Below, in pieces: positions 22,785 to 54,012 of a stretch of 64,000 nucleotides of DNA. This stretch comes from Natronomonas halophila (lineage in GTDB: Archaea; Halobacteriota; Halobacteria; Halobacteriales; Haloarculaceae). The position numbers and the translations under genes were made by a program. Every line of letters begins with the position of its first letter. The stretch's first letter is position 1. The DNA is taken from contig NZ_CP058334.1 of NCBI RefSeq assembly GCF_013391085.1, forward strand, positions 2,480,001-2,544,000. The letters run 5' to 3'. The notes beneath the pieces are model-generated. The model saw only the letters and a list, made by a program, of their open reading frames with translations, had not been told where the DNA came from and did not search any database.

Positions 22785-23052
22785 GCATCCGCCGAGCGGG
22801 GCGCTTGAAAAGCGCCCCCGAGGCGGTTCCCGCTGGCGACCGAAGGGAGCCAGCGTAGCGCCGACTGACTAACGCTCAGCCGACCGTAGGGAGGCTGAGC
22901 GGCTGGAAGGAGGGCGCATATTTTCACCACGTTTTTGCCGTCATCAGACCGCGACGCGGTCTGATTGCCCATCAGATTCCTGCGGAATCTGATGACCGCG
23001 GAGGCGGGTTCGGCGCCTCGCGCGCCGAACCGCCGGAGCGTGCAAAAAGTGG
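22785..23052 (+). repeat. Structured intergenic element, copy A (3' half form)
   Basis: This fills the space between convergent genes. Conserved linkers (GCATCC, CGAGGCGGTTCCC, GTAGCGCCGACTGACTAAC, GGCTGGAAGGAGG, CGCATATTTTC) separate stem-loops: an inner GGGGCGCTT/AGCGCCCC hairpin, CGCTGGC/GCCAGCG (22831-22855) and GCTCAGCC/GGCTGAGC (about 22874-22900). The end is an imperfect stem, CCAC(g)TTTTTGC at 22927-22938 pairing with GCAAAAAGTGG at 23042-23052. It encloses two tandem hairpins also found in copy D, and a third hairpin GGTTCGGCGC/GCGCCGAACC. The 5' half present in copies B and C is absent. The conserved end abuts the aCPSF1 stop codon. Confidence 0.85.
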
Positions 23053-23054
23053 TT

Positions 23055-24974
23055 TTACTTGAACCGAAACGTCTCCAGGTTCTTCGGCGCGAAGGTTCGC
23101 ATGTTGAACTCGTGGTAAAGCGCGGAAGAGAGGTCCTGCACGGAGGATTCGTCGCCGTGGACACACAGCACTTTCTCGGGCCGCGGGTTCATGGTGCGGA
23201 CGAAGTTCATGAGGCCCTGCCGGTCGGCGTGACCGGAGAAGCCGTCGACGGTTTCGACGTTCATGTTGAGGGTGAGTTTGCCGCGGCTGCCGCCACGGTC
23301 GTCCATCGGAATCTCGTCCCAACCGTTCTGAATACGGCGGCCGAGGGTTCCCTGTGCCTGATAGCCGACGAAGGTCATCGTCGAGTCTTCCTCGCTGCCG
23401 AGATGCTGGAGCCACGACATGATGGGGCCGCCTTCGACCATCCCGGACGTCGAGAGGACGACACAGGGGCCGCCGTCGGCGACCTCCTGGCGTTCTTCCT
23501 CGCCGCCGTCGATGTGGTTGAACTGGTCGGCGAGGAAGGGGTTCTGGTCCTCGTGGAAGATGCGGTCCCGGAGGTCGTCACGGAGGTACTCGGGGTAGGT
23601 CGTGTGGATGGCCGTCGCCTCCCATATCATGCCGTCGAGGTGGACCGGGATTTCGGGGATTTCGCCTTTGCGCATGGCCTCTTCGAGGACGAGCATGATC
23701 TCCTGTGAGCGGCCGACGGCGAAGGCGGGAATGAGGACCTTGCCGCCGCGTTCGGCGGTCTCGCGGATGACCTTCTTGAGCTCCTCCTCGGAGTCCGTCT
23801 GGTCGGTTTGGTAGTCGTTTCGGCCGCCGTAGGTCGACTCCATGACCAGCGTCTCGACGCGGGGGAACTCGTTCGTCGCGCCGTTGAAGAGGCGCGTGTC
23901 GTCGTAGTGGATGTCACCGGAGAAGGCGACGTTGTAGAGGCCGTCGCCGATGTGGAAGTGGGTGACTGCGGAGCCGAGAATGTGGCCGGCGTTGTGGAAG
24001 GTGAGTTTGAGGTCCGGCGCGATGTCGGTGACGTCGCCGTACTCCAGCGGGATGCAGTGTTTGATGGCCTCCCGGACCTGTTCGGACTCGTAGGGCGGCG
24101 CGCGGCCCTCCTTGGCGGCGACGTCGAGGTAGTCCAGCGTCAGCAGGCCCATCAGGTCGCGGGTCGGCTCCGTACAGTAGATGGGGCCGTCGTAACCGTA
24201 TTTAAAGAGGAGCGGGATGAGCGCGGAGTGGTCGAGGTGGGCGTGGGTGAGCACAACGGCGTCGATGTTCTGGGCGCCCGCGCCGAGGGCCTCGGGCACC
24301 TGCAGGTAGGGCACTTCGCCTTCGGCACCGGGCTTGTCACCGCAGTCGATGAGGACGCGCGTTTCGGGCGTGTTGAGGATGAAGGCGGCCCGACCGACCT
24401 CGCGGCAGCAGCCGAGGGTGGAGATGCGGACCCACTCGTCGTCGGACATCTCCTCGCGGTGAATCTGTCGACCGACGCGTTCGAGGATGTCCCGACGCTC
24501 GTCGCGTTCGTGCTTCAGGAAGTTCCGGACGTTCGAGACCGTCGAGGACTCGATGGGCGGCGTCCGGACGACTTCGGGCGTCCAGCCGACCTCCTGGGTA
24601 ATCTCCCGGAGGGTCGACCCGTGGCGGCCGATGACCATGCCGGGCTTTTCGGCCTCGATGACGACTTCGCCGGTGTCGGCGTGGAAATCGAGGTCCGTGA
24701 CGCCGGCTTCCTCGGGGATGACGGCTTCGACCTGCTCGCGGGCCTTCTCCGGTCGGGTGAGCACGTCGGGGTCCGGACGGACGGTGATTCGCTTGCGGAG
24801 TTTGGAGGCGAGGCGTCGAACGAGGTCGCCGTCTCCGGCGAACTTCTTGGGGTCGCGGGTGTAGACGACCAGTTCGGGCCCTTCGTATTTCACGTCCGAA
24901 ATCGAGATGTCGCTCGGGACCTCGTCGGTGATCGTTTCCTTGATATCTTCGAGTTTCCGCTCTACTGCGCTCAT
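23055..24974 (-). CDS. fttA: aCPSF1 (FttA) ribonuclease and transcription termination factor
   Basis: A 639-residue archaeal CPSF73-like protein that cleaves nascent RNA and terminates transcription. N-terminal KH domains (about 1-150, with VIGRHGSTLREITQEVG) bind RNA. The metallo-beta-lactamase core follows with HAHLDH (244-249), GHILGSA, FSGD and ESTYGGR. The beta-CASP domain and C-terminal motifs include PAFAVGRSQE, STSGM, YQAQGTLGRRI and FSGHADR. The start at MSAVERKLEDIKE matches the family; an 11-residue extension is rejected. Between it and the divergent gene lies a near-perfect inverted repeat. The gene reads towards structured element A, whose T-run abuts its stop. Confidence 0.95.
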   Translation of the reverse strand: MSAVERKLEDIKETITDEVPSDISISDVKYEGPELVVYTRDPKKFAGDGDLVRRLASKLRKRITVRPDPDVLTRPEKAREQVEAVIPEEAGVTDLDFHADTGEVVIEAEKPGMVIGRHGSTLREITQEVGWTPEVVRTPPIESSTVSNVRNFLKHERDERRDILERVGRQIHREEMSDDEWVRISTLGCCREVGRAAFILNTPETRVLIDCGDKPGAEGEVPYLQVPEALGAGAQNIDAVVLTHAHLDHSALIPLLFKYGYDGPIYCTEPTRDLMGLLTLDYLDVAAKEGRAPPYESEQVREAIKHCIPLEYGDVTDIAPDLKLTFHNAGHILGSAVTHFHIGDGLYNVAFSGDIHYDDTRLFNGATNEFPRVETLVMESTYGGRNDYQTDQTDSEEELKKVIRETAERGGKVLIPAFAVGRSQEIMLVLEEAMRKGEIPEIPVHLDGMIWEATAIHTTYPEYLRDDLRDRIFHEDQNPFLADQFNHIDGGEEERQEVADGGPCVVLSTSGMVEGGPIMSWLQHLGSEEDSTMTFVGYQAQGTLGRRIQNGWDEIPMDDRGGSRGKLTLNMNVETVDGFSGHADRQGLMNFVRTMNPRPEKVLCVHGDESSVQDLSSALYHEFNMRTFAPKNLETFRFK

Positions 24975-25036
24975 ATTAGAAATCCTTGGTTGTGGGCTTG
25001 CCGGCACTGCGGCGGACTGCTGTCGGCGCTCGCGGA

Positions 25037-29201: not shown

Positions 29202-30662
29202 ATGAGCGACGAATCGGGGACACAGGAACTCGGCATCACCGAGTCCAAGGAGCACAGTCCCGGCGAGTGGTACGCGGAAGTCGTCCAGAAGGCCGGTCTC
29301 GCGGATTACGCCCCCATGGGCGGCTTTATCGTCACCCGTCCGCGCGGCTACGCGCTGTGGGAGCGCCTGCAGGACCACCTCGACGGCTGGTTCAAGGAGA
29401 CGGGCGTCCAGAACACCTACTTCCCGATGTTCATCCCCGAGAGCTATCTCGAACGGGAGAAGGACATCGTCGAAGGGTTCGACCCCGAAGTGGCGTGGGT
29501 GACCCACGGCGGCCACGACGAACTCGACGAGCGGCTCGCCGTCCGGCCCACAAGCGAGTCCATCATCACGCCCTTTATCGCCGAGTGGGTCCGCAGCCAC
29601 CGTGACCTCCCGATGCGGCTGAACCAGTGGTGTTCGGTCGTCCGGTGGGAGGCCACCGAGACCAAGCCCTTCTTCCGGACCAAGGAGTTCCTCTGGCAGG
29701 AGGGCCACACCGCCCACGCCGACGAGGAAGGCGCCTGGGAGGAGACGATGACCCGCCTCGGTCAGTACGAACGGCTCTACGAGGAGGTCATGGCCATTCC
29801 CGGGATGACGGGTCGCAAGCCCGAACACGACAAGTTCCCCGGTGCCGACACCACGACGACCATCGAGGCGCTGATGCCCGACGGCAAGTCCGTGCAGGCC
29901 GGCACCTCCCACTACCTCGGGACCTCCTTCGCGGAGGCCTTCGACATCGAGTACACCGACGAGGACGAAAACGAACGGCTCGCCCACACCACCTCGTGGG
30001 GCCTCTCGTGGCGCGCACTCGGCGCGCTCATCATGACTCACTCCGACGACCAGGGACTGGTCATCCCGCCCAAACTCGCGCCCACGCAGGTCGTCATCGT
30101 CCCCATCTGGCAGGCCGACACCGAGGAGAAAGTCAAGGAGTACGCCGCCGACCTCGCCGCCGAACTCGACGAGGAGTTCCGGGTCGAGTTGGACGACCGC
30201 GACGAGCGGAATCCCGGCTTCAAGTTCAACGAACACGAACTCAACGGCGTTCCCCTCCGCATCGAAATCGGCCCCAACGAGGTCGACGACGAGGAGGCCA
30301 CGCTGGTCCACCGTCCCGACGGCGAGAACGAGGTCGCCGACCGCGAGGGCATCACCGAATCCGTTCAGGACGCCCTCGATACGGTCTACGCCAAACTCTA
30401 CGCCGACGCCGAGGAGACCCTCGAAAACAACATCCGCGAGGCCCACGGCCGCGGCGAAATCCTCGGCACGCTCGGCAAGCACGGCGGCTACGTCAAGACC
30501 GGTTGGTGCGGCGACGAGGACTGCGAAGCCGAAATCAAGGACCAGATCGCCGCCGAAATCGTGATGCTCCCCCTCGAAGAGGACTACGACCCCGTCCACG
30601 ACACCTGCGGCGTCTGCGGTGAGGACGCCGAGGAGACGGCGTACTTCGCGAAGAGTTACTAA
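29202..30662 (+). CDS. proS: Proline-tRNA ligase
   Basis: Class II aminoacyl-tRNA synthetase that charges tRNA-Pro. The 486-residue protein is of the archaeal/eukaryotic type without the bacterial editing insertion. Motif 2 is visible at NQWCSVVRWEATETKPFFRT with KEFLWQEGHTAHA. Motif 3 lies in TTSWGLSWRALGALIM. An anticodon-binding domain follows (about 285-380). The C-terminal domain has Cys pairs CGDEDCEAE and CGVCG that would bind zinc, and ends in the conserved aromatic KSY. A TATA-like GTTTAATAC lies 28 nt upstream. Structured element D begins 2 nt after its stop codon. Confidence 0.96.
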   Translation: MSDESGTQELGITESKEHSPGEWYAEVVQKAGLADYAPMGGFIVTRPRGYALWERLQDHLDGWFKETGVQNTYFPMFIPESYLEREKDIVEGFDPEVAWVTHGGHDELDERLAVRPTSESIITPFIAEWVRSHRDLPMRLNQWCSVVRWEATETKPFFRTKEFLWQEGHTAHADEEGAWEETMTRLGQYERLYEEVMAIPGMTGRKPEHDKFPGADTTTTIEALMPDGKSVQAGTSHYLGTSFAEAFDIEYTDEDENERLAHTTSWGLSWRALGALIMTHSDDQGLVIPPKLAPTQVVIVPIWQADTEEKVKEYAADLAAELDEEFRVELDDRDERNPGFKFNEHELNGVPLRIEIGPNEVDDEEATLVHRPDGENEVADREGITESVQDALDTVYAKLYADAEETLENNIREAHGRGEILGTLGKHGGYVKTGWCGDEDCEAEIKDQIAAEIVMLPLEEDYDPVHDTCGVCGEDAEETAYFAKSY

Positions 30663-30664
30663 AG

Positions 30665-30816
30665 CCCACTTTTGCACGTTCGGTGCGGCTTCGCCGCGCC
30701 TTGCAGTCATCAGATTCCCGCGGAATCTGATGGGCAATTAGACCGCTACGCGGTCTAATGACGGCAAAAACGTGGGAAAAATATTCGCGCGTTACTCCTT
30801 TCGCGCGGATGCTCCG
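30665..30816 (-). repeat. Structured intergenic element, copy D (internally deleted)
   Basis: Read on the minus strand, this short copy starts GCATCCG, lacks the central hairpins, and continues with AAAGGAG, GCGCGAATATTTTT and CCCACGTTTTTGCCG. It then carries the twin hairpins seen in copy A: ATTAGACCG/CGGTCTAAT with a C-to-T and matching G-to-A change relative to A, and CATCAGATTCC/GGAATCTGATG. A further hairpin follows and it ends CGTGCAAAAGTGGG. On the plus strand this end gives CCCACTTTTGCACG directly after the proS stop codon. Confidence 0.8.
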
Positions 30817-31568: not shown

Positions 31569-34500
31569 ATGCCTGAGCGAACCGACTCTTCTGCGGGGAC
31601 GGCCGGCCTCGCGGACCCTGACGACTACCGCGCCAACTGTGGGGTAGGCGTCGTCATGGACCTCGACGGCGGCCGGTCCCACGAGACGGTCGACGATAGC
31701 CTCGAACTACTGGAGAACCTCGAACACCGCGGCACCACCGGCGCCGACGAGAACACCGGCGACGGCGCGGGCATCCTCTTCCAGATGCCCCACGAGTTCT
31801 TCGCCGATGAAATCGACGGGCTTCCGGACCGCGGCGAGTACGCCGTCGGCTCCATCTTCATGCCGAAGGACCCCGACGCCGCCGCCCACCTGCAGGACAT
31901 CGTCGAGGACGTCCTCGCGGACCACGGCCTCGACGTCTTCGCGTGGCGCGAAGTCCCGACCGAAAACGACTCCCTCGGCGAGACGGCTGCCGAATCCGAA
32001 CCCGCCGTCGTCCAGTGTTTCGTCCGCTCCGAACTGGACGAGGACGCCTTCGACCGCGCGCTCTACGTCGGCCGCCGCGACCTCGAAAAGACCGTCGAGG
32101 ACCGCCGTCCCGACGGCTACGCTCGCTTCTATATCTGCTCGCTGGACCGCGACACGCTCGTTTATAAAGGTCTGCTGACGGCCGAGCAACTGCCGGCGTA
32201 CTACCCCGAACTCTCCGACGAACGCTTCAAGTCGACCTTCGCGATGGTCCACGCCCGGTTCTCGACGAACACCCTCGGCGCGTGGCATCTCGCCCACCCC
32301 TACCGCAACATCATCCACAACGGCGAGTTCAACACGATTCAGGGGAACATCAACTGGATGCGGGCCCGCGAGGACGACCTCGAACACCCCGAGTTCGGCG
32401 ACGATATCGACACCCTCCGCCCGATTATCAACGACCCCGAACAGTCCGACACCGCGAGCGTCGACAACGCCCTCGAACTCCTGATGGAAGGCGGCCGCGA
32501 CATGCCGCATGCCCTCCGAATGTTAATCCCCGAGGCCTGGCGCGGCGAGGCCAACCGCGTCCCCGAGGACCGACGCGAGTGGTACGACTACCACGCCTCG
32601 CTGGTCGAACCGTGGGACGGTCCCGCCCTCGTCGCGGCGACCGACGGCGAACGCATCGGTGCCGTGCTGGACCGGAACGGCCTCCGACCCTGCCGGTACG
32701 ACGTGACGACCGACGACCGACTCATCATGGCCAGCGAGGCCGGCGCGCTGGAACCCGATTTCGGCGACATCAAACGCCGTGACCGCCTCCAGCCCGGCCA
32801 GCTGTTCGTCGCCGACCCCAACGAGGGACGGGTCATCCCTGACGACGAGATCTTCGACGAACTCGTCGACGAGAAGTACGCCGACTGGGTCGACCAGGAA
32901 CAGGTCGACATCGACGATATCGCGGATGCCGACGATGCCCTGCCGGAGGGAGACGTCACGGAACTCCGCTCGCATCAGGCGCTGTACGGCTACACCCACG
33001 ACGAGATGGACCACCTCATCGAGCCGATGGCCCGCGACGGCAAGGACCCTGTCGGGTCGATGGGCGACGACACGCCGCTTTCCGTCCTCTCGCAGTTCAA
33101 CCGCCCGCTCTTTACGTACTTCAAACAGCTCTTCGCGCAGGTCACCAACCCGCCGCTTGACTACATCCGCGAGGAACTGGTCACCTCTCTGGAGTCCCGC
33201 CTCGGCTTCCAGCGCAACCTGCTCGACGAGACGCCGGAACACGCCCGGCAACTCGTCGTCGACTCGCCGGTACTGACCGACGCGAAGACGAAATCCATCA
33301 AGGACCTCGACGGTGAGGGCGGCCTCTCCTCGGCGGTCGTCGATATCACCTTCGACCCCGAGACGGACCTCGAAACCGCCGTCGAGAACGTCCGCGAGGA
33401 AGCCACCCGGACCGCACGGGAACACGATATCCTCGTGCTTTCGGACCGCGCGGCCGGCGAGGATGCCATCCCGATTCCGGCGCTGCTGGCGACCGGCGGC
33501 GTCCACCATCACCTCGTCCGAAACGGGCTTCGGAACCACGTCGGCCTCGTCCTCGAATCGGGTGACCCGCGTGCGGTCCACCACGTCGCCACCTGCATCG
33601 GCTACGGTGCCGGCGCTGTCAACCCCTACCTCGCCTACGAGTCCATCACGGACCTCGTTGCCGGCCCCGACGGTGCCGACGAAAACGCGGCCGTTCAGGC
33701 CTACATCAAGGCCGTCGAGGACGGCCTGCTGAAGACGATGGCCAAGATGGGTATCTCGACGGTCGAATCCTATCAGGGCGCCCAGATTTTCGAGGCAGTC
33801 GGCCTCGATTCGGAGTTCGTCGCCGAATACTTCGAGGGCACCACCGCCCGAACCGAAGGCATCGACATCGAGGACATCGAGGAAGACCTGAAACGCCGCT
33901 ACGAGGTCGCCTTCGGCGACGACCCGGACCTCGAAATGCAGGGCGAGTACGAACACCGCTCCTCGGGCATGTTCCACGAGTGGAACCCCGAGTCGGTCGG
34001 CACGCTCCAGAAGGCCGTCCGACAGGGCGACTACGAGCAGTACCAGGAGTTCGCCTCGATGATGAACGACCAGCAGGAGAACCTCCAGAGCCTTCGGGGC
34101 CTGCTGGAGTTCGATTCGGACCGCGACCCGGTCGACATCGACGAGGTCGAACCCGTCGAAGACATCGTCAAACGGTTCTCGACGGCCGCGATGAGTCTCG
34201 GGAGCCTCTCGCCGGAAGCCCACGAGAACAACTCCATCGCGATGAACCGCCTCGGCGGCAAGTCCAACACCGGTGAGGGCGGCGAACCGCCCGAACGGTT
34301 CAACACCGAAAAGGAGTGTACCGTCAAGCAGGTCGCCTCCGGTCGCTTCGGCGTCACCTCGGATTACCTCACCAACGCCGACGAGATTCAAATCAAGATG
34401 GCACAGGGCTCCAAGCCCGGCGAGGGCGGCCACCTGCCCGGCCGGAAGGTCAACGAGATGATCGCCCACGTCCGCTACTCGACGCCGGGTGTCGGTCTCA

Positions 34501-36098
34501 TCTCGCCGCCGCCGCTGCACGACATCTACTCCATCGAGGACCTCAAACAGCTCATCCACGACCTGAAGGCCGCCAACCCGGACGCGGACATCAACGTCAA
34601 ACTGGTCTCGGAGGCCGGCATCGGGACGATTGCGGCCGGCGTCGCGAAGGCCAACGCCGACGTGGTCCACATCTCGGGCCACTCCGGCGGCACCGGCGCC
34701 TCACCCAAAACGTCCATCAAGAACGCCGGCCTGCCGTGGGAACTCGGCCTCGCCGAAGCCAACCAGATGCTCCGGTCGACGGACCTGCGCTCCCGCATCC
34801 GCGTCACCGTCGACGGCGGGATGAAGACCGGCTACGACGTCGCCGTCGGCGCCCTGCTCGGCGCCGAGGAGTACGTCTTCGGGACCGCGCCGCTGGTGAC
34901 TTCTGGCTGTGTGATGGCCCGGCAGTGCCACGAGAACACCTGTCCGGTCGGCGTCGCCACCCAGGACGAGGACCTCCGGAGTCGCTTCCCCGGCGAACCT
35001 CAGCACGTCATCAACTACATGACGTTCATCGCGCAGGAACTGCGCGAAATCATGGCTGACCTCGGCTACACGAGCGTCGAGGAGATGATTGGACGCGTCG
35101 ACGCCCTCAAACAGCGTGAGGACGTCGAACAGGAGAAGGCCAAGAAACTCGACCTCTCGTCGATTCTCGCGGAACCCGCCGGCGACCAGCGCACCAAGAC
35201 CGAACCGCAGACCCACGAAATCGACGAGGCGCTGGACTGGGACCTCATCGACGAGGCCGAGGACGCCATCGAGCACGGCGACCCCGTCCATCTGGACCGC
35301 GACATCTCGAACAACCACCGCGCGGTCGGCGCCACGCTCTCGAACCGCATCTCGAAGGCCCACGGCACCGAGGGTCTGCCCTCGGATACCATCACCGTCG
35401 ACTTCGGCGGCACGGCCGGCCAGAGTTTCGGCGCCTTCCTGCAGGACGGCGTCACCCTCCAGTTGACCGGCACCGCCAACGACTACGTCGGCAAGGGGCT
35501 GTCGGGCGGCAAACTCGTCGTGAACACGCCGAACGACGCTCCCTACGAACCCGAGAAGAACATCCTCGTCGGCAACGTCGCCCTCTACGGTGCGACGCAG
35601 GGCGAGGCCTACATCAACGGCATGGCCGGCGAGCGCTTCGGCGTCCGCAACTCTGGTGTCAAGGCCGTCGTCGAATCGGTCGGCGACCACGGCTGTGAGT
35701 ACATGACCGGCGGCGTCGTCGCCTGCCTCGGCGAGACGGGCAAGAACTTCGCCGCGGGCATGTCCGGTGGTGTCGCCTACGTCCTCGACCGCGAGGGCGA
35801 CTTCGAACAGAAGGTCAACTACGGCATGGTCTCGACCTCGCAGGAACTCGACCAGAAGGACCGCGAGATGCTCCGCCGTCTCATCGAGAACCACGTCGCC
35901 TACACCGATTCGGACCGCGCCGAATACATCCTCGACAACTGGGAGGAGGAAGTCGAGAAGTTCGTCAAGGTGCTGCCCGATGCCTACGCGGAAATCATCG
36001 AGGACCGCGAGGAGGCGGACGTCCGCAACGACCTCCCCGAAAGCGCGACGCCCGAGGCCGAAACCGACGCGGCCGGGCACGTAGCGAGCGACGACTAA
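31569..36098 (+). CDS. gltB: Glutamate synthase, large subunit type
   Basis: Glutamate synthase transfers the glutamine amide to 2-oxoglutarate. The 1509-residue protein has an N-terminal class II glutamine amidotransferase domain whose catalytic Cys is C24 after a short propeptide. A central linking domain (about 430-800) follows, then the FMN-binding synthase domain (about 850-1220) with 3Fe-4S ligands C1114, C1120 and C1125, and a C-terminal GXGXG beta-helix domain (about 1240-1480). No gltD-like small subunit gene is adjacent, which fits a ferredoxin-dependent enzyme. Structured element B starts about 20 nt after the stop. Confidence 0.96.
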   Translation: MPERTDSSAGTAGLADPDDYRANCGVGVVMDLDGGRSHETVDDSLELLENLEHRGTTGADENTGDGAGILFQMPHEFFADEIDGLPDRGEYAVGSIFMPKDPDAAAHLQDIVEDVLADHGLDVFAWREVPTENDSLGETAAESEPAVVQCFVRSELDEDAFDRALYVGRRDLEKTVEDRRPDGYARFYICSLDRDTLVYKGLLTAEQLPAYYPELSDERFKSTFAMVHARFSTNTLGAWHLAHPYRNIIHNGEFNTIQGNINWMRAREDDLEHPEFGDDIDTLRPIINDPEQSDTASVDNALELLMEGGRDMPHALRMLIPEAWRGEANRVPEDRREWYDYHASLVEPWDGPALVAATDGERIGAVLDRNGLRPCRYDVTTDDRLIMASEAGALEPDFGDIKRRDRLQPGQLFVADPNEGRVIPDDEIFDELVDEKYADWVDQEQVDIDDIADADDALPEGDVTELRSHQALYGYTHDEMDHLIEPMARDGKDPVGSMGDDTPLSVLSQFNRPLFTYFKQLFAQVTNPPLDYIREELVTSLESRLGFQRNLLDETPEHARQLVVDSPVLTDAKTKSIKDLDGEGGLSSAVVDITFDPETDLETAVENVREEATRTAREHDILVLSDRAAGEDAIPIPALLATGGVHHHLVRNGLRNHVGLVLESGDPRAVHHVATCIGYGAGAVNPYLAYESITDLVAGPDGADENAAVQAYIKAVEDGLLKTMAKMGISTVESYQGAQIFEAVGLDSEFVAEYFEGTTARTEGIDIEDIEEDLKRRYEVAFGDDPDLEMQGEYEHRSSGMFHEWNPESVGTLQKAVRQGDYEQYQEFASMMNDQQENLQSLRGLLEFDSDRDPVDIDEVEPVEDIVKRFSTAAMSLGSLSPEAHENNSIAMNRLGGKSNTGEGGEPPERFNTEKECTVKQVASGRFGVTSDYLTNADEIQIKMAQGSKPGEGGHLPGRKVNEMIAHVRYSTPGVGLISPPPLHDIYSIEDLKQLIHDLKAANPDADINVKLVSEAGIGTIAAGVAKANADVVHISGHSGGTGASPKTSIKNAGLPWELGLAEANQMLRSTDLRSRIRVTVDGGMKTGYDVAVGALLGAEEYVFGTAPLVTSGCVMARQCHENTCPVGVATQDEDLRSRFPGEPQHVINYMTFIAQELREIMADLGYTSVEEMIGRVDALKQREDVEQEKAKKLDLSSILAEPAGDQRTKTEPQTHEIDEALDWDLIDEAEDAIEHGDPVHLDRDISNNHRAVGATLSNRISKAHGTEGLPSDTITVDFGGTAGQSFGAFLQDGVTLQLTGTANDYVGKGLSGGKLVVNTPNDAPYEPEKNILVGNVALYGATQGEAYINGMAGERFGVRNSGVKAVVESVGDHGCEYMTGGVVACLGETGKNFAAGMSGGVAYVLDREGDFEQKVNYGMVSTSQELDQKDREMLRRLIENHVAYTDSDRAEYILDNWEEEVEKFVKVLPDAYAEIIEDREEADVRNDLPESATPEAETDAAGHVASDD

Positions 36099-36116
36099 CA
36101 ACCACGTTCTACACCG

Positions 36117-36544
36117 AACTTTTTGCACGGGTCGGCTTCGCCGACCCGGCAAAAACTTCGATGAAAAAGACACTTCGACCCTCCCTACGGTCGGGTCTCG
36201 GTCCCGCGCCTCACTTCGTTCGTCGCGGTGAACCGCTCGCGCCCTGCGGGCGCTCGCGGACATCATTATTTTTTGCTGAGGTAGCCGGCACGAGAACTCA
36301 GGTTCGGCCAGCGGATACAGGAACGGAGGTTAGCATCCGCCGAGTGGGGCCTTCGAAGAAGGCCCTCGAGGCGGTTCCCCGGACAAGGGCGTCTCCGGCG
36401 CCCGCAGTCCGGTAGCGCCGACTGACTAACGCGAGCCGAAGGCTCGCGGCTGGAAGGAGGCGCGCATATTTTCACCACGTTTTTGCCGCGGAGCCGGGTC
36501 TGGCGCCGTAGCGCGCCAGACCGGCGGAGCGTGCAAAAAGTGGG
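36117..36544 (+). repeat. Structured intergenic element, copy B (full length)
   Basis: The 514-bp gap after gltB is mostly this element. The ends are an 11-bp inverted repeat, CTTTTTGCACG and CGTGCAAAAAG. The 5' stem is TTTTTGC(a)CGGGTCGGC with GCCGACCCGGCAAAAA (36120-36155). The linker CTTCGATGAAAAAGACACTT follows, then hairpins GACCC/GGGTC, CCGCG/CGCGG and GCGCCC/GGGCGC. GTTAG (36329-36333) can pair with CTAAC (36426-36430) around the CCGCC/GGCGG and GGAC/GTCC hairpins. GCGAGCC/GGCTCGC and the CCAC(g)TTTTTGC...GCAAAAAGTGG stem, enclosing GGTCTGGCGC/GCGCCAGACC, complete the 3' half. The remaining 68 bp before the next gene hold a TATA-like CTTTTGTAG. Confidence 0.88.
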
Positions 36545-36612: not shown

Positions 36613-39600
36613 ATGAGTGAAGACCCATTCGACGGGTCGCCGGTCTCTCGCCGGCGATTCATGGCGCTATCGGCAGCCACGGGCGCGGCGCTGACGCTCC
36701 CGGCGAACGCGACGGCGGATGCGAGTTCGCCCGCGTTCACGACGGAGTATCAGTACGTCCTGAACCACACGCCGGAGGACCACGCGGTCCCGACGCTGGT
36801 ACGCTTCTCGGACCCGAGCGGCACGACCGCGATGGAGGGGGCCCTCGACAAGGAGGTCCATACGACGACCAGCCCTGAACCGGCGGGCTACGCGCAGGTG
36901 ACGACCGCCGAAGCCCAGATGCTGGCGGACCTGCCGAACGCCAGCGAGTTTCAGTTCGCACCGGGGTCGAATCCCTTCTGGCGAATCGGCTACTACCCGA
37001 TGGGCGTTTTCCCGGAACCGCGACGTTCGGTGGACTACATCGGTTTCGAGCAACTGAAGGACGGCCTCAACGTGCTCGAAGAACGGTATCCGGACAAGAT
37101 TCGGGTCAAGCGAGTCGGTCAGTCGCCGGGCCACCACAACAACGTCACCGACCGCCCCGACCCCAAGGGGATGTACGTCGCCGAGTTGACGAACTTCGAT
37201 TCGGAGACGGACTTCGAGGACAAGGAGAAGGTGTTCTTCTCCTGTTCGCTGCACGGGTTGGAGATGGCCGGTCGGGAGACGGGCGCTCGCGTGCTCGAAA
37301 ACGCGGCCCGTGGCTCCGAACCGGACGTCGACGGCAGCGACGCGAAACTCGAACCGCTGCTGGACGACGTCGTCGTCATCATCGGCTTTACGAACCCCGA
37401 CGGCTGGGCGGTCCGCAACCCGCAGTACGATTCCGGGTGGCAGGTCGGTGGTCCGGGTACCGGAACGCCACGAGCGCCCGCCGCACCGCTGTACGAGCGC
37501 GGGAACGCGGAGGTGTTCGATACGAACCGCCAGTACCCCGCTGTGGGGTACATCAACCCCGCCCACTATCCGGCGGCCCCCGCGAATTACGAGGGCGACG
37601 AGCCGGGGTTCGTCAACGAGAAGGTGCCGGACGCCAAGGCCTTCGTCGACTACTTCCAGGATTACGAGAACCTCAACTACGGTGCCGACCTCCACGGCGG
37701 TCCCGTCTTCAACAATTTCGTGTTGGGGCTCATCTCGCAGGACCAGTTCAACACGCGGGAACTCCACGAGGTCTACGAGATGTGTCGCAACATCAACGAG
37801 ACGCTTGCGTCGGCCCTTAGCACGTGGGAAACCGTCGGTCAGGCGCGGGTCGACCTCGTGGGGGACCAGCAGTTCTCCCCGGTCCTGTTCGGCGTCGTCC
37901 CCGAGAGCGCCTTCGACTACGCCACCATCTACGACACCATCGGCTACACGGTGTCGGGCGCGTTCCTCGACTGGATGGCCCACCCCGAGCCCATCGGCCT
38001 CGACATGACGACGCTGGACTTCGAGATGTCGTTCAACCACATGCTCGGAGGGAACGTCTACAACCCCGAACTGTTCGAGATGGAGGTCACGGGCTATCGC
38101 GCGGCCATCCGAACCATCACCCAGTTCGCCGTCAACAACACCGACACGCCGACGACCGACGAGGAGTTCAGCACCGAAACAAAGACCAGCGGCGATACGG
38201 TCGCCTACATCACGACCGGCGAGGTCGGGTCCAGCGAGGACGCACTCCGACGGACCGACGGACAGCTCGATTTCGACTACGAGGGAACCGAGTTCTACGA
38301 GACCAGCGAAGAGGGCGAACTCGCTGCCGACCTGACGGAGTTCACCTTCGACGTCGAGCGGACGGACATCCATAGCATGGGTGTCCACCTCCACGGGGAG
38401 GGCATCGTTGCGGACCTCGACTTAGTCTCGCCGTCCGGCGAAACGGTCTACGAGTTCGAGGGCGTCACCGACGAACGTGTCGGCGGGAAATGCTGCGGCC
38501 TGCCGGAGTTCACGGTTAGCGACCCGGAACCGGGAACGTGGTCGCTCCAGATCGCCAACTATCAGGATGCCGGACAAATCGTCGAAATGCAACGCTGGAC
38601 GCTGGCCGCTCAGGGCGCGCCCGACCCCACGCAGGCCTGGGGCAGCGAGGGATACGAACAGGCGCCCTACGACGTGACTCCCTTCGAGTTCTTCAAGGAC
38701 TACGAATCCGCCGAAAAGCGTGGCAACCTGCGGAACTTCATCAGGGACGGCGGCTCGGTCGAGCCGGTCACCGTCGACGAGGTCCGGAGCGGCAAACTCG
38801 CCGACGAGAACTACGACCACGCGGTCCTCATCCACGACTACGTCTCGCCGAAAAAGCGTATCTCCGGCGGGACCGACAATCAGATGGGAGACATTACCGG
38901 AAACGCGTCCGGCGATGTCGTCGACGATTACACCGACGCGCTCGATGACTTCGTCGACAGCGGCGGGAACCTCGTCGTGACCGACACGGGGACGTACGTC
39001 CTGCCGGAACTCGACAACGAACTCCTCGATGGGTCGAAAATCAACCGCGAAAGCGACGTCGAGCGGCAGTTCCTCGACGTGGCCCGCTTCACGAGCAAGA
39101 ACCTCGACCATCCGCTGTTCGACAAGCACGTTCGGGAGATACAGAACCAGCTCTGGAAGGTCCAGCCGCTGGGCTATCAGGTGACCGGCGAGGCACCGAT
39201 GGACCTCGTCAGCGAGGCGGCTTTCACCGGCGCCGCCACCGACGACGGCGTCGCCTCCATCGCCGGCCGGACGAACAGTCTGGTCGCCGCCGGTTCGATT
39301 ACCGAGGCCGAGGATTCGGGCCGCGGCATCCACTACATCTCCTCGCTGCTGCCACCGGCCTGGCAGGCGAACCTGCACCCGTTCGGCCTCCAGAACTACA
39401 CCGTGACGTTCCTCGGCAACATCCTGCTCACTTCGGCGCTCGGCTTCGAGCAGGTCCGGACGGCGGGCGATACGAAACGTCGGTACGGACGCACCGACGG
39501 GTGGAACGTCGGCGGCAGCGACCCCACCGACGACCTCACCGCCAGCGGGTCCCGGACGGTCGACAGTAGCGTCGTTACGGGCGAGCAGGCCCACCGGGTC

Positions 39601-39924
39601 GAACTCACGGTCTCGAACCTCAGCGAGGACGCGGTCATTCGCGACCAGTTCCCCGACGGTTGGGACCTCCTGCCGTGGGCCCAGGGCACGGAAGTCGACG
39701 ATGGCGTCGTCGAGTTCAGATACAGTGACGACTCTCGGGCCGTTCCGGCCGACGAGGTCGACGGTGGCGACGAGTCGGTCACCTTCACCTACTTCGTCGA
39801 ACCGCCGGGCGGCGTCCAGAACTCCAACGTCGCGAGCTACGGCCCCGCAATCGCCAAGGTCGGCGAGGAGACGGCTAACTTCGCCGGACAGGACGACGTC
39901 GTCTTCGTCGGTGTCGACACATAG
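36613..39924 (+). CDS. Tat-exported M14 zinc carboxypeptidase with P-domain
   Basis: A 1103-residue secreted protein. The twin-arginine signal SRRRFMALSAATGAALTLPA ends near residue 37. The M14 peptidase domain (about 135-520) shows zinc ligands H214 and E217 in LHGLE and a second His in ADLHGGPVFN. LDFEMSFNH may supply the catalytic Glu. A proprotein-convertase P-type beta domain follows (about 575-665: FDVERTDIHSMGVHLHGEGI, LVSPSGETVYEF, GTWSLQIANY). The remainder (670-1103) looks like a Ca-dependent or GATase-like alpha/beta region and a C-terminal beta domain, which I cannot name. It probably digests extracellular peptides and has no membrane anchor. Confidence 0.88.
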   Translation: MSEDPFDGSPVSRRRFMALSAATGAALTLPANATADASSPAFTTEYQYVLNHTPEDHAVPTLVRFSDPSGTTAMEGALDKEVHTTTSPEPAGYAQVTTAEAQMLADLPNASEFQFAPGSNPFWRIGYYPMGVFPEPRRSVDYIGFEQLKDGLNVLEERYPDKIRVKRVGQSPGHHNNVTDRPDPKGMYVAELTNFDSETDFEDKEKVFFSCSLHGLEMAGRETGARVLENAARGSEPDVDGSDAKLEPLLDDVVVIIGFTNPDGWAVRNPQYDSGWQVGGPGTGTPRAPAAPLYERGNAEVFDTNRQYPAVGYINPAHYPAAPANYEGDEPGFVNEKVPDAKAFVDYFQDYENLNYGADLHGGPVFNNFVLGLISQDQFNTRELHEVYEMCRNINETLASALSTWETVGQARVDLVGDQQFSPVLFGVVPESAFDYATIYDTIGYTVSGAFLDWMAHPEPIGLDMTTLDFEMSFNHMLGGNVYNPELFEMEVTGYRAAIRTITQFAVNNTDTPTTDEEFSTETKTSGDTVAYITTGEVGSSEDALRRTDGQLDFDYEGTEFYETSEEGELAADLTEFTFDVERTDIHSMGVHLHGEGIVADLDLVSPSGETVYEFEGVTDERVGGKCCGLPEFTVSDPEPGTWSLQIANYQDAGQIVEMQRWTLAAQGAPDPTQAWGSEGYEQAPYDVTPFEFFKDYESAEKRGNLRNFIRDGGSVEPVTVDEVRSGKLADENYDHAVLIHDYVSPKKRISGGTDNQMGDITGNASGDVVDDYTDALDDFVDSGGNLVVTDTGTYVLPELDNELLDGSKINRESDVERQFLDVARFTSKNLDHPLFDKHVREIQNQLWKVQPLGYQVTGEAPMDLVSEAAFTGAATDDGVASIAGRTNSLVAAGSITEAEDSGRGIHYISSLLPPAWQANLHPFGLQNYTVTFLGNILLTSALGFEQVRTAGDTKRRYGRTDGWNVGGSDPTDDLTASGSRTVDSSVVTGEQAHRVELTVSNLSEDAVIRDQFPDGWDLLPWAQGTEVDDGVVEFRYSDDSRAVPADEVDGGDESVTFTYFVEPPGGVQNSNVASYGPAIAKVGEETANFAGQDDVVFVGVDT

Positions 39925-52937: not shown

Positions 52938-53363
52938 CCACTTTTTGCACGCTCCGCCGGTCGCGCGCGCTGCGGCGCGCGACACGGCTCCGCGGCAAAA
53001 ACGTGGGGAAAATATGCGCGCCTCCTTCCAGCCGCCTCGCTCCGCTCGGCGTTAGTCAGTCGGCGCTACCGGACGCTCGGCCTTCGGCCTCACGTCCGGG
53101 GAACCGCCTCGAGGGCGACCTTCGGACGCCCCACTCGGCGGATGCTAACCCAAAGTCCTGTCTCAGCAGGCTGAATCAGGGTATCAGTGCAGGCTACCTC
53201 GGCAAGAAATAGGTGGGTGTCCGCGAGGGCGCCCAAGGCGCCCGAGCGGTTCACCGCGCGACCGTAGGGAGCGCGGGACCGAGGCCCGACCATCGGGAGG
53301 GCCGAAGTGTCTTTTTCATCGAAGTTTTTGCCGGCGCGCCGCAGGCGCGCCGTGCAAAAAGTT
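52938..53363 (-). repeat. Structured intergenic element, copy C (full length, inverted)
   Basis: A second full copy, on the minus strand, filling most of the 463-bp gap. Compared with copy B the linkers are nearly identical but the stems change together: 5' stem CGGCGCGCC/GGCGCGCCG (B has CGGGTCGGC/GCCGACCCG), GGCCC/GGGCC (B GACCC/GGGTC), CCGCGC/GCGCGG, GGGCGCC/GGCGCCC, and the terminal hairpin GTCGCGCGC/GCGCGCGAC (B GGTCTGGCGC/GCGCCAGACC). GTTAG and CTAAC are also kept. The ends are CTTTTTGCACG and CGTGCAAAAAG. One end directly follows the M42 stop codon; the other lies 37 nt before the halocyanin start. Confidence 0.88.
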
Positions 53364-53400
53364 CGAAGGATTGACGACGGGGTGGTCGCAAGGGATGGGT

Positions 53401-54012
53401 ATGAGCACGAACGACATGAGTCGCCGTGGGTTTCTGACGGCGACGGCGGGGACCGCCGCGGCCGGCGCGGCGGCCGGGACGGCGACGGCCCAACAGCAGG
53501 TGCCGGATTACGGCGCGTATCTGAACAACGCCAACGGATACACCGACGGCGAGTACACGGACCTGCGCGGCGAGTCGGAAGTCACGATTGCGGTCGGTGC
53601 GGGCGACGGCGGCCTCGCGTTCGACCCTGCGGCCGTCTGGATCGACCCCGGCACGACGGTCACGTGGGAGTGGACTGGCAACGGCAGTCACAACGTGGTC
53701 ACCAACGAAGGTCCCGCTGGCTTCGAGCACTCGGATATCGTCGGTGAGGAGGGTTACACCTACCAGTACGAGTTCACCGAGGAGGACGCCGGCATCACGA
53801 CCTACTTCTGTTCGCCCCACGAGGGGCAGGGCATGAAAGGCGGTATCGCCGTCGGCGGGGACATCTCCACGGTCGAAGTCGGTGGCGGTCCGCCCATCCA
53901 GATTCCGGACCAAGCGTATTCGCTGACGATGGCGACGTTCATCGCGATGGTGACGACGCTCGGACTCGGCTACTTCTTCATGAAGTACGGCGGCGACTAC
54001 GAGACACAGTAG
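53401..54012 (+). CDS. Second membrane-anchored halocyanin
   Basis: A 203-residue type 1 copper protein, a close paralogue of the bc-operon halocyanin. The Tat signal SRRGFLTATAGTAAAGAAAG lacks a lipobox. The cupredoxin ligands are H97, C137, H140 and M145 in NGSHNV and YFCSPHEGQGM. A C-terminal helix (about 177-193) anchors it. It is separated from the bc complex by 4.8 kb and follows structured element C. The start chosen, MSTNDMSRRG, gives a typical Tat N-terminus; earlier in-frame ATGs (53371, 53395) are possible. It probably acts as an alternative electron carrier. Confidence 0.92.
   Translation: MSTNDMSRRGFLTATAGTAAAGAAAGTATAQQQVPDYGAYLNNANGYTDGEYTDLRGESEVTIAVGAGDGGLAFDPAAVWIDPGTTVTWEWTGNGSHNVVTNEGPAGFEHSDIVGEEGYTYQYEFTEEDAGITTYFCSPHEGQGMKGGIAVGGDISTVEVGGGPPIQIPDQAYSLTMATFIAMVTTLGLGYFFMKYGGDYETQ

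Follow-up and report, generated by a model that had tools for sequence, protein, structure and literature searches.

The multi-copy intergenic elements analysed here seem to be transcription stops formed by structured RNA, in a family not described before; that they are transcribed is inferred. The reading we prefer, to which we give an even chance of being right, is that of a gene-end cassette family: each member would fold and would stop transcription heading into the 3' end of a neighbouring gene, with both transcription and termination being inferences. We preferred it because it best joined four observations, namely folding on one strand together with a T-run, a palindrome at the stop codon, the retention of sites across species and the interchangeability of the unit types.

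Within the window (the whole 64-kb stretch of Natronomonas halophila DNA that was analysed), an earlier note had placed four copies of an intergenic element. All four were found there when the sequence was checked: A at 22785-23052 (plus), D at 30665-30816 (minus), B at 36117-36544 (plus) and C at 52938-53363 (minus). The 5' stems quoted for B (CGGGTCGGC/GCCGACCCG) and C (CGGCGCGCC/GGCGCGCCG) are in the sequence, and so are the 3' hairpins quoted for A, B and C. Copies B and C are head-to-head pairs of two different units each, which diverge from a central spacer of about 70 nt; the type I unit is on the minus strand in B and on the plus strand in C, and the type II unit is on the plus strand in B and on the minus strand in C. 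Copy A is a lone type II unit. Copy D is a type II remnant, matched at E<=1e-4 by neither of the two covariance models, R1 (built from type I units) and R2 (built from type II units). The parts of the four copies are listed in Table 1.

Table 1. Parts of the four copies in the 64-kb window, with strand and basis.
Feature	Position	Strand	Basis
Copy A, type II RNA core (h1, h2, h3 with internal loop, TATTTTC run)	22785..22934	+	R2 match, 133 bits
Copy A, terminal palindrome CCACGTTTTTGCC..GTGCAAAAAGTGG with a two-hairpin module inserted	22926..23052	+	sequence
Copy D, degenerate type II remnant and terminal palindrome	30665..30816	-	sequence, Pfam
Copy B, terminal palindrome of the type I unit	36116..36155	-	
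Copy B, type I RNA core	36153..36263	-	R1 match, 125 bits
Copy B, central spacer between divergent units	36264..36332	no strand	
Copy B, type II RNA core	36333..36475	+	R2 match, 140 bits
Copy B, terminal palindrome of the type II unit	36475..36544	+	
Copy C, terminal palindrome of the type II unit	52938..53006	-	
Copy C, type II RNA core	53006..53145	-	R2 match, 129 bits
Copy C, central spacer between divergent units	53146..53216	no strand	
Copy C, type I RNA core	53217..53327	+	R1 match, 118 bits
Copy C, terminal palindrome of the type I unit	53325..53364	+	

Copy A ends just beyond the FttA/aCPSF1 stop codon (gene 23055-25007, minus), and copy D lies 3' of the prolyl-tRNA synthetase gene (29202-30662, plus). 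In copy B, the type I palindrome sits about 20 nt beyond the gltB stop codon (gene 31569-36098, plus) and the type II palindrome is upstream of an M14 peptidase gene (36613-39924, plus). In copy C, the type II palindrome comes immediately after the stop codon of a plus-strand M42 peptidase gene, and the type I palindrome is upstream of a plastocyanin-family gene (53395-54012, plus). The FttA/aCPSF1 gene adjoining copy A itself encodes the archaeal transcription termination factor. Nested two-hairpin modules, TCATCAGACC..GGTCTGATTGCCCATCAGATTCC..GGAATCTGATGA, were seen within the terminal palindromes of copy A (22936-22997) and copy D (30705-30770); such modules also occupy the loops of many genomic copies and recall SMRs inserting into palindromes. 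A tRNA was considered as well, and none is in the window.

The element proved to be multi-copy on a larger scale than the four copies reported: 76 folding units were parsed genome-wide. The 3.21-Mb genome gave 55 BLAST matches, together with 54 matches to R1 and 52 to R2, two lists that overlap; the units were parsed from the stretches around the matches, not from a reading of the whole genome. The earlier note was right about the element, its copies and its paired stems; what escaped it were the two unit types, their fixed place behind stop codons and the fact that other species keep the same sites.

The two main types, I (about 110 nt) and II (about 135 nt), occur singly or as head-to-head pairs. 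On the folded strand, both open with GCATCCGC (variants GTATCC, GTGTCC and GCATACGC), followed by helix h1 (CCGC..GCGG), TTC and helix h2. After h2, type I continues with GGGACCRAG, helix h3, GMMGTGTC and TTTTTCAT, and type II with TAGCG, a long helix with an internal loop, CGCGCAT and ATTTTC. The type II internal loop is conserved, with GACTAA or GACTAC opposite GCTGGA or ACAGGA. In both types, the terminal palindrome has the form TTTTTGC..GCAAAAA inside outer arms CCAC/GTGG, CGAA/TTCG or GAAC/GGTTC. The mini-hairpins follow the pattern GA-NN-GNA-NN-GA, in which a GNA triloop caps two pairs and tandem G·A. As regards a possible MITE, paired units carry inverted ends, ACTTTTTGCACG, and single units are without them. 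Minimal members consisting of h1 and h2 alone (type III) were found in other genera and families. Two type II copies (C1:1224155-1224328 and C1:2123532-2123711) have the h3 apex and the conserved internal loop inverted, with the outer helix intact. By eye, no three-nucleotide bulge lies beside the tandem G·A, so a kink-turn in the internal loop of type I or II was dropped. The terminal palindrome occurs 58 times in the genome (0 for a reversed-pattern control) and never in genomes without units. As nearly all 58 are joined to a unit and the palindrome is absent where units are absent, it was rejected as an independent terminator.

Compensatory change in the stems, which the earlier note had taken as the sign of a selected structure, is statistically strong, with covariation far above both shuffled and slid controls. 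For 22 type II copies, counted on a plain MAFFT alignment not fitted to the model, the covariation score was 0.431 vs 0.132 (sd 0.012) after shuffling and 0.04-0.09 with the partners slid; 20 of the 34 pairs were altered on both sides, and 96.2% of the cells were paired. Larger sets of 76 and 90 distinct sequences scored 0.408 vs 0.116 and 0.341 vs 0.078, respectively, on alignments that were model-fitted and are therefore biased towards the model. Type I pairs were counted only on a model-fitted alignment and by RNAalifold, which gave double-sided change for 12 of 28 pairs in type I and 20 of 36 in type II. The controls consisted of shuffling and sliding and were not tree-aware.

Covariation extends to the loops. 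Among type I sequences, the R in CCRAG covaries with the first M in GMMGUG: 48 of the 49 distinct sequences have A with C or G with A. At the equivalent loop position in type II, 54 of 59 have A with G or C with A. By base-pair isostericity, both swaps are inferred to be the change expected for trans Hoogsteen/sugar-edge pairs. The linked loop states co-occur with many different h3 stems; the unpaired linkers and T-runs are almost invariant among copies, and the GAC/GGA core of the internal loop is invariant. The loop statistics assume independent copies, and the copies are not fully independent.

The units are polarised. The strand running from GCATCC to the palindrome was the more stable one in 75 of the 76 units with RNA parameters and in 70 with DNA parameters, and perfect triloops of the GNA form numbered 121 on this folded strand vs 24 on the opposite one. 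T4+C, present as a T4-5C run, was found on the folded strand in 72/76 units and on the other strand in 12. The earlier note had left undecided whether an RNA or a DNA hairpin is formed; because the loops are strand-specific, the T4-5C run is one-sided and the covariation includes non-canonical positions, the data favour a folded RNA, transcription itself being inferred. In Haloferax volcanii, termination at an inserted T5C is 95% efficient, and a plain T-run is enough for termination in haloarchaea (PMC7237163). The same 72/76 units meet, on the folded strand, the feature of T-stretch terminators, T4-5C downstream of a gene end or hairpin. The units are like the T5C terminators of H. volcanii, which have an optional upstream hairpin (PMC7237163), in the T4-5C run, in the upstream hairpins and in the intergenic place after genes. 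However, the Haloferax terminators are a loose hairpin near a T-run, whereas the units, for which termination is an inference, are multi-helix, with internal loops, fixed linkers and dozens of copies. Since a plain T-run suffices in haloarchaea, termination by itself does not account for loops so elaborate and conserved, a point against the cassette reading.

The position of the units is equally regular. In 55 of the 76, the palindrome ends no more than 10 nt from the stop codon of a convergent gene; gene calling relied on a simple rule based on composition, and a few of these 55 may be wrong. Convergent genes with units include thermosome subunits and nuoI, as recognised from their protein sequences. 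At the other side, the GCATCC end faces a convergent neighbour's stop codon in 31 single units, and in 22 (tandem) it faces the start of a gene oriented away from the unit. With no promoter at a fixed distance, the source of a folded-strand transcript is unclear in these 22 tandem cases.

A mechanism can be proposed from these sequence features. Read from its GCATCCGC end, each unit presents two or three helices with conserved internal loops and GNA-capped mini-hairpins, then the T4-5C run, and then a bidirectional palindrome 3-10 nt beyond the convergent neighbour's stop codon. A polymerase moving towards the neighbour's 3' end, whether by convergent read-through or on an antisense transcript, would make the folded RNA and may be released at the T4-5C and T5G runs. 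The T5 of the palindrome on the opposite strand would end the neighbour's own mRNA.

Of 28 type I loci found by pattern in other species, 19 sit at a gene end that also bears a unit in N. halophila, vs 4 of 200 control windows taken from the same contigs; two of the 19 possibly concern a paralogue. These shared-site loci include Halosegnis rubeus (L129) and metagenome-assembled Halobacteriales. At the end of gltB, where N. halophila has type I(-)/II(+), the same place carries a short type III-like(-)/II-like(+) pair in two genomes (G001 and G009) and II-like(-)/I(+) in a third (G015). The end of nuoI has an antisense type I unit in four genomes, an antisense type II unit in three and none in several; other species have related-looking units in sense there. 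Types I, II and minimal III can stand in for one another at a given site, so the function is probably tied to the site in general and not to a particular sequence. The lack of a unit, in some species, at a site that others keep (nuoI) counts against the cassette reading, both loss and gain being possible.

Retention of a site does not mean retention of its sequence. In sequence, orthologous copies resemble each other no more than randomly chosen paralogues do (mean relative rank 0.53), although for two close species the agreement reaches 0.89. Judged from such comparisons, the sites appear to persist while their content gets replaced or homogenised. Units behind the same genes in other genera and families suggest very old gene-specific sites. 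At three loci from other genera or families, L061 (G024), L102 (G041) and L092 (G040), units stand behind apparent thermosome genes and behind the same gene (ending DLGYM) as in N. halophila. In G002 (L208), a related-looking sense element stands past the nuoI stop codon, and beyond it the last 27 codons of nuoI recur, a hint of capture through duplication. A remnant is kept in G019 (L210).

Three other explanations have to be weighed. The units could give rise to stand-alone small non-coding RNAs, which would start near GCATCCGC, end at the T4-5C run and act in trans via the internal loop, for example through a bound protein, itself only inferred. We regard this as unlikely, yet it explains the conserved internal loops, with their isosteric-looking swaps and invariant core, better than the cassette reading does, and it agrees with the polarity of folding. 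TATA-like AT tracts ahead of many units would also fit. These tracts, however, stand at scattered distances (-9 to -30), many of them where the promoter of the neighbour sits; a search for an AT/TATA peak at a fixed distance upstream of GCATCC found none, and an own promoter for the units was rejected on that ground. Besides, a role in trans needs neither the swap of types I and II at one site nor dozens of fixed copies at gene ends.

Somewhat more doubtful still is a mobile but non-autonomous palindromic repeat of the kind seen in Haloquadratum (PATEs and SMRs), with the hairpins as recognition sites of an IS200/IS605-type transposase acting on single-stranded DNA and the copies as old insertions behind genes. 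The many copies, the two-hairpin insertions nested in loops, the range from 0 to >50 copies per genome within the genus Natronomonas and the palindromes near the ends, as in PATEs (PMC3119063), all suit such an element, and the nuoI tail duplicated around a related element in G002 means that it perhaps explains the origin of the family. What it leaves unexplained is the retention of sites common to species and genera. Near-identical copies were not found either, the best paralogue identities being about 0.72-0.87, and the number of Y1 transposase genes does not track copy number: Y1_Tnp counts are 0 in the drafts G010 and G012 with many copies and four in G002 with few, and the N. halophila genome has one such gene, at 2909290. 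The collections of viral, plasmid and phage sequences that were searched yielded no units. The PATEs and SMRs of Haloquadratum walsbyi (PMC3119063) are alike in being many short palindromic repeats without a transposase gene, with small repeats nested in palindromes; unlike them, the units are tied to stop codons, occupy sites common to species and genera and do not conserve stem sequence, and neither insertion nor an empty-site difference has been shown for them.

The third explanation, that there is no structural selection and that replication template switching copies one palindrome arm onto the other and flips loops, is highly improbable and already largely refuted: it accounts for whole stems that differ among copies, for some inverted loops (TTC for GAA) and for the inverted h3 apex in two copies (1224155, 2123711), but not for near-invariant linkers and T-runs, the strand bias of 75/76 or the retained sites, and arm copying cannot yield the loop covariation because those positions are non-complementary.

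The bacterial REP and BIME elements (REP superfamilies, PMC3733652) offer a further comparison. Roles in termination and mRNA stability have been proposed for REP/BIME elements, and REPs are 20-40 bp long. The units, unlike REPs, are multi-helix elements of 110-200 nt with covarying stems, and their copy number did not track that of Y1 transposase genes. They are alike in forming many intergenic palindrome copies.

The family extends well beyond N. halophila. A search of haloarchaeal genomes with covariance models, which the earlier note had proposed, gave R1 matches at E<=0.001 in 90 of 116 genomes and in 21 of the 22 sampled genera of the organism's family; the R1 count for each genome is an at-least value, among the candidates scored. 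Full-length type I occurs mainly in Natronomonas and a few other genera. The family remains unnamed, as the earlier note had held: an Rfam search, which excluded a known RNA family, returned no match at the gathering score or at E<=10, and no description was found in the literature searched.

A broader proposal is tentative, and we consider it possible rather than probable: the units may be a class of structured RNAs widespread among haloarchaea, whose conserved internal loop binds a protein or ligand and which arise at dozens of gene ends in each genome as convergent or antisense transcripts. Together they may serve as a dedicated system for insulating 3' ends, one that spreads between sites by gene conversion, with interchangeable RNA types being exchanged at fixed genes. 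How the transcription of tightly packed convergent archaeal genes is kept separate is an open question, and a cassette of conserved structure behind dozens of housekeeping genes, family-wide and type-swapping, would be a natural set of candidate terminators. It is also an example of RNA structure staying constant while sequence turns over, with orthologous copies losing identity. Minimal units can be arrayed as well: at positions 1501-1862 of L104 (G002), three of them form a tandem array with a period of 142 nt and score equally.
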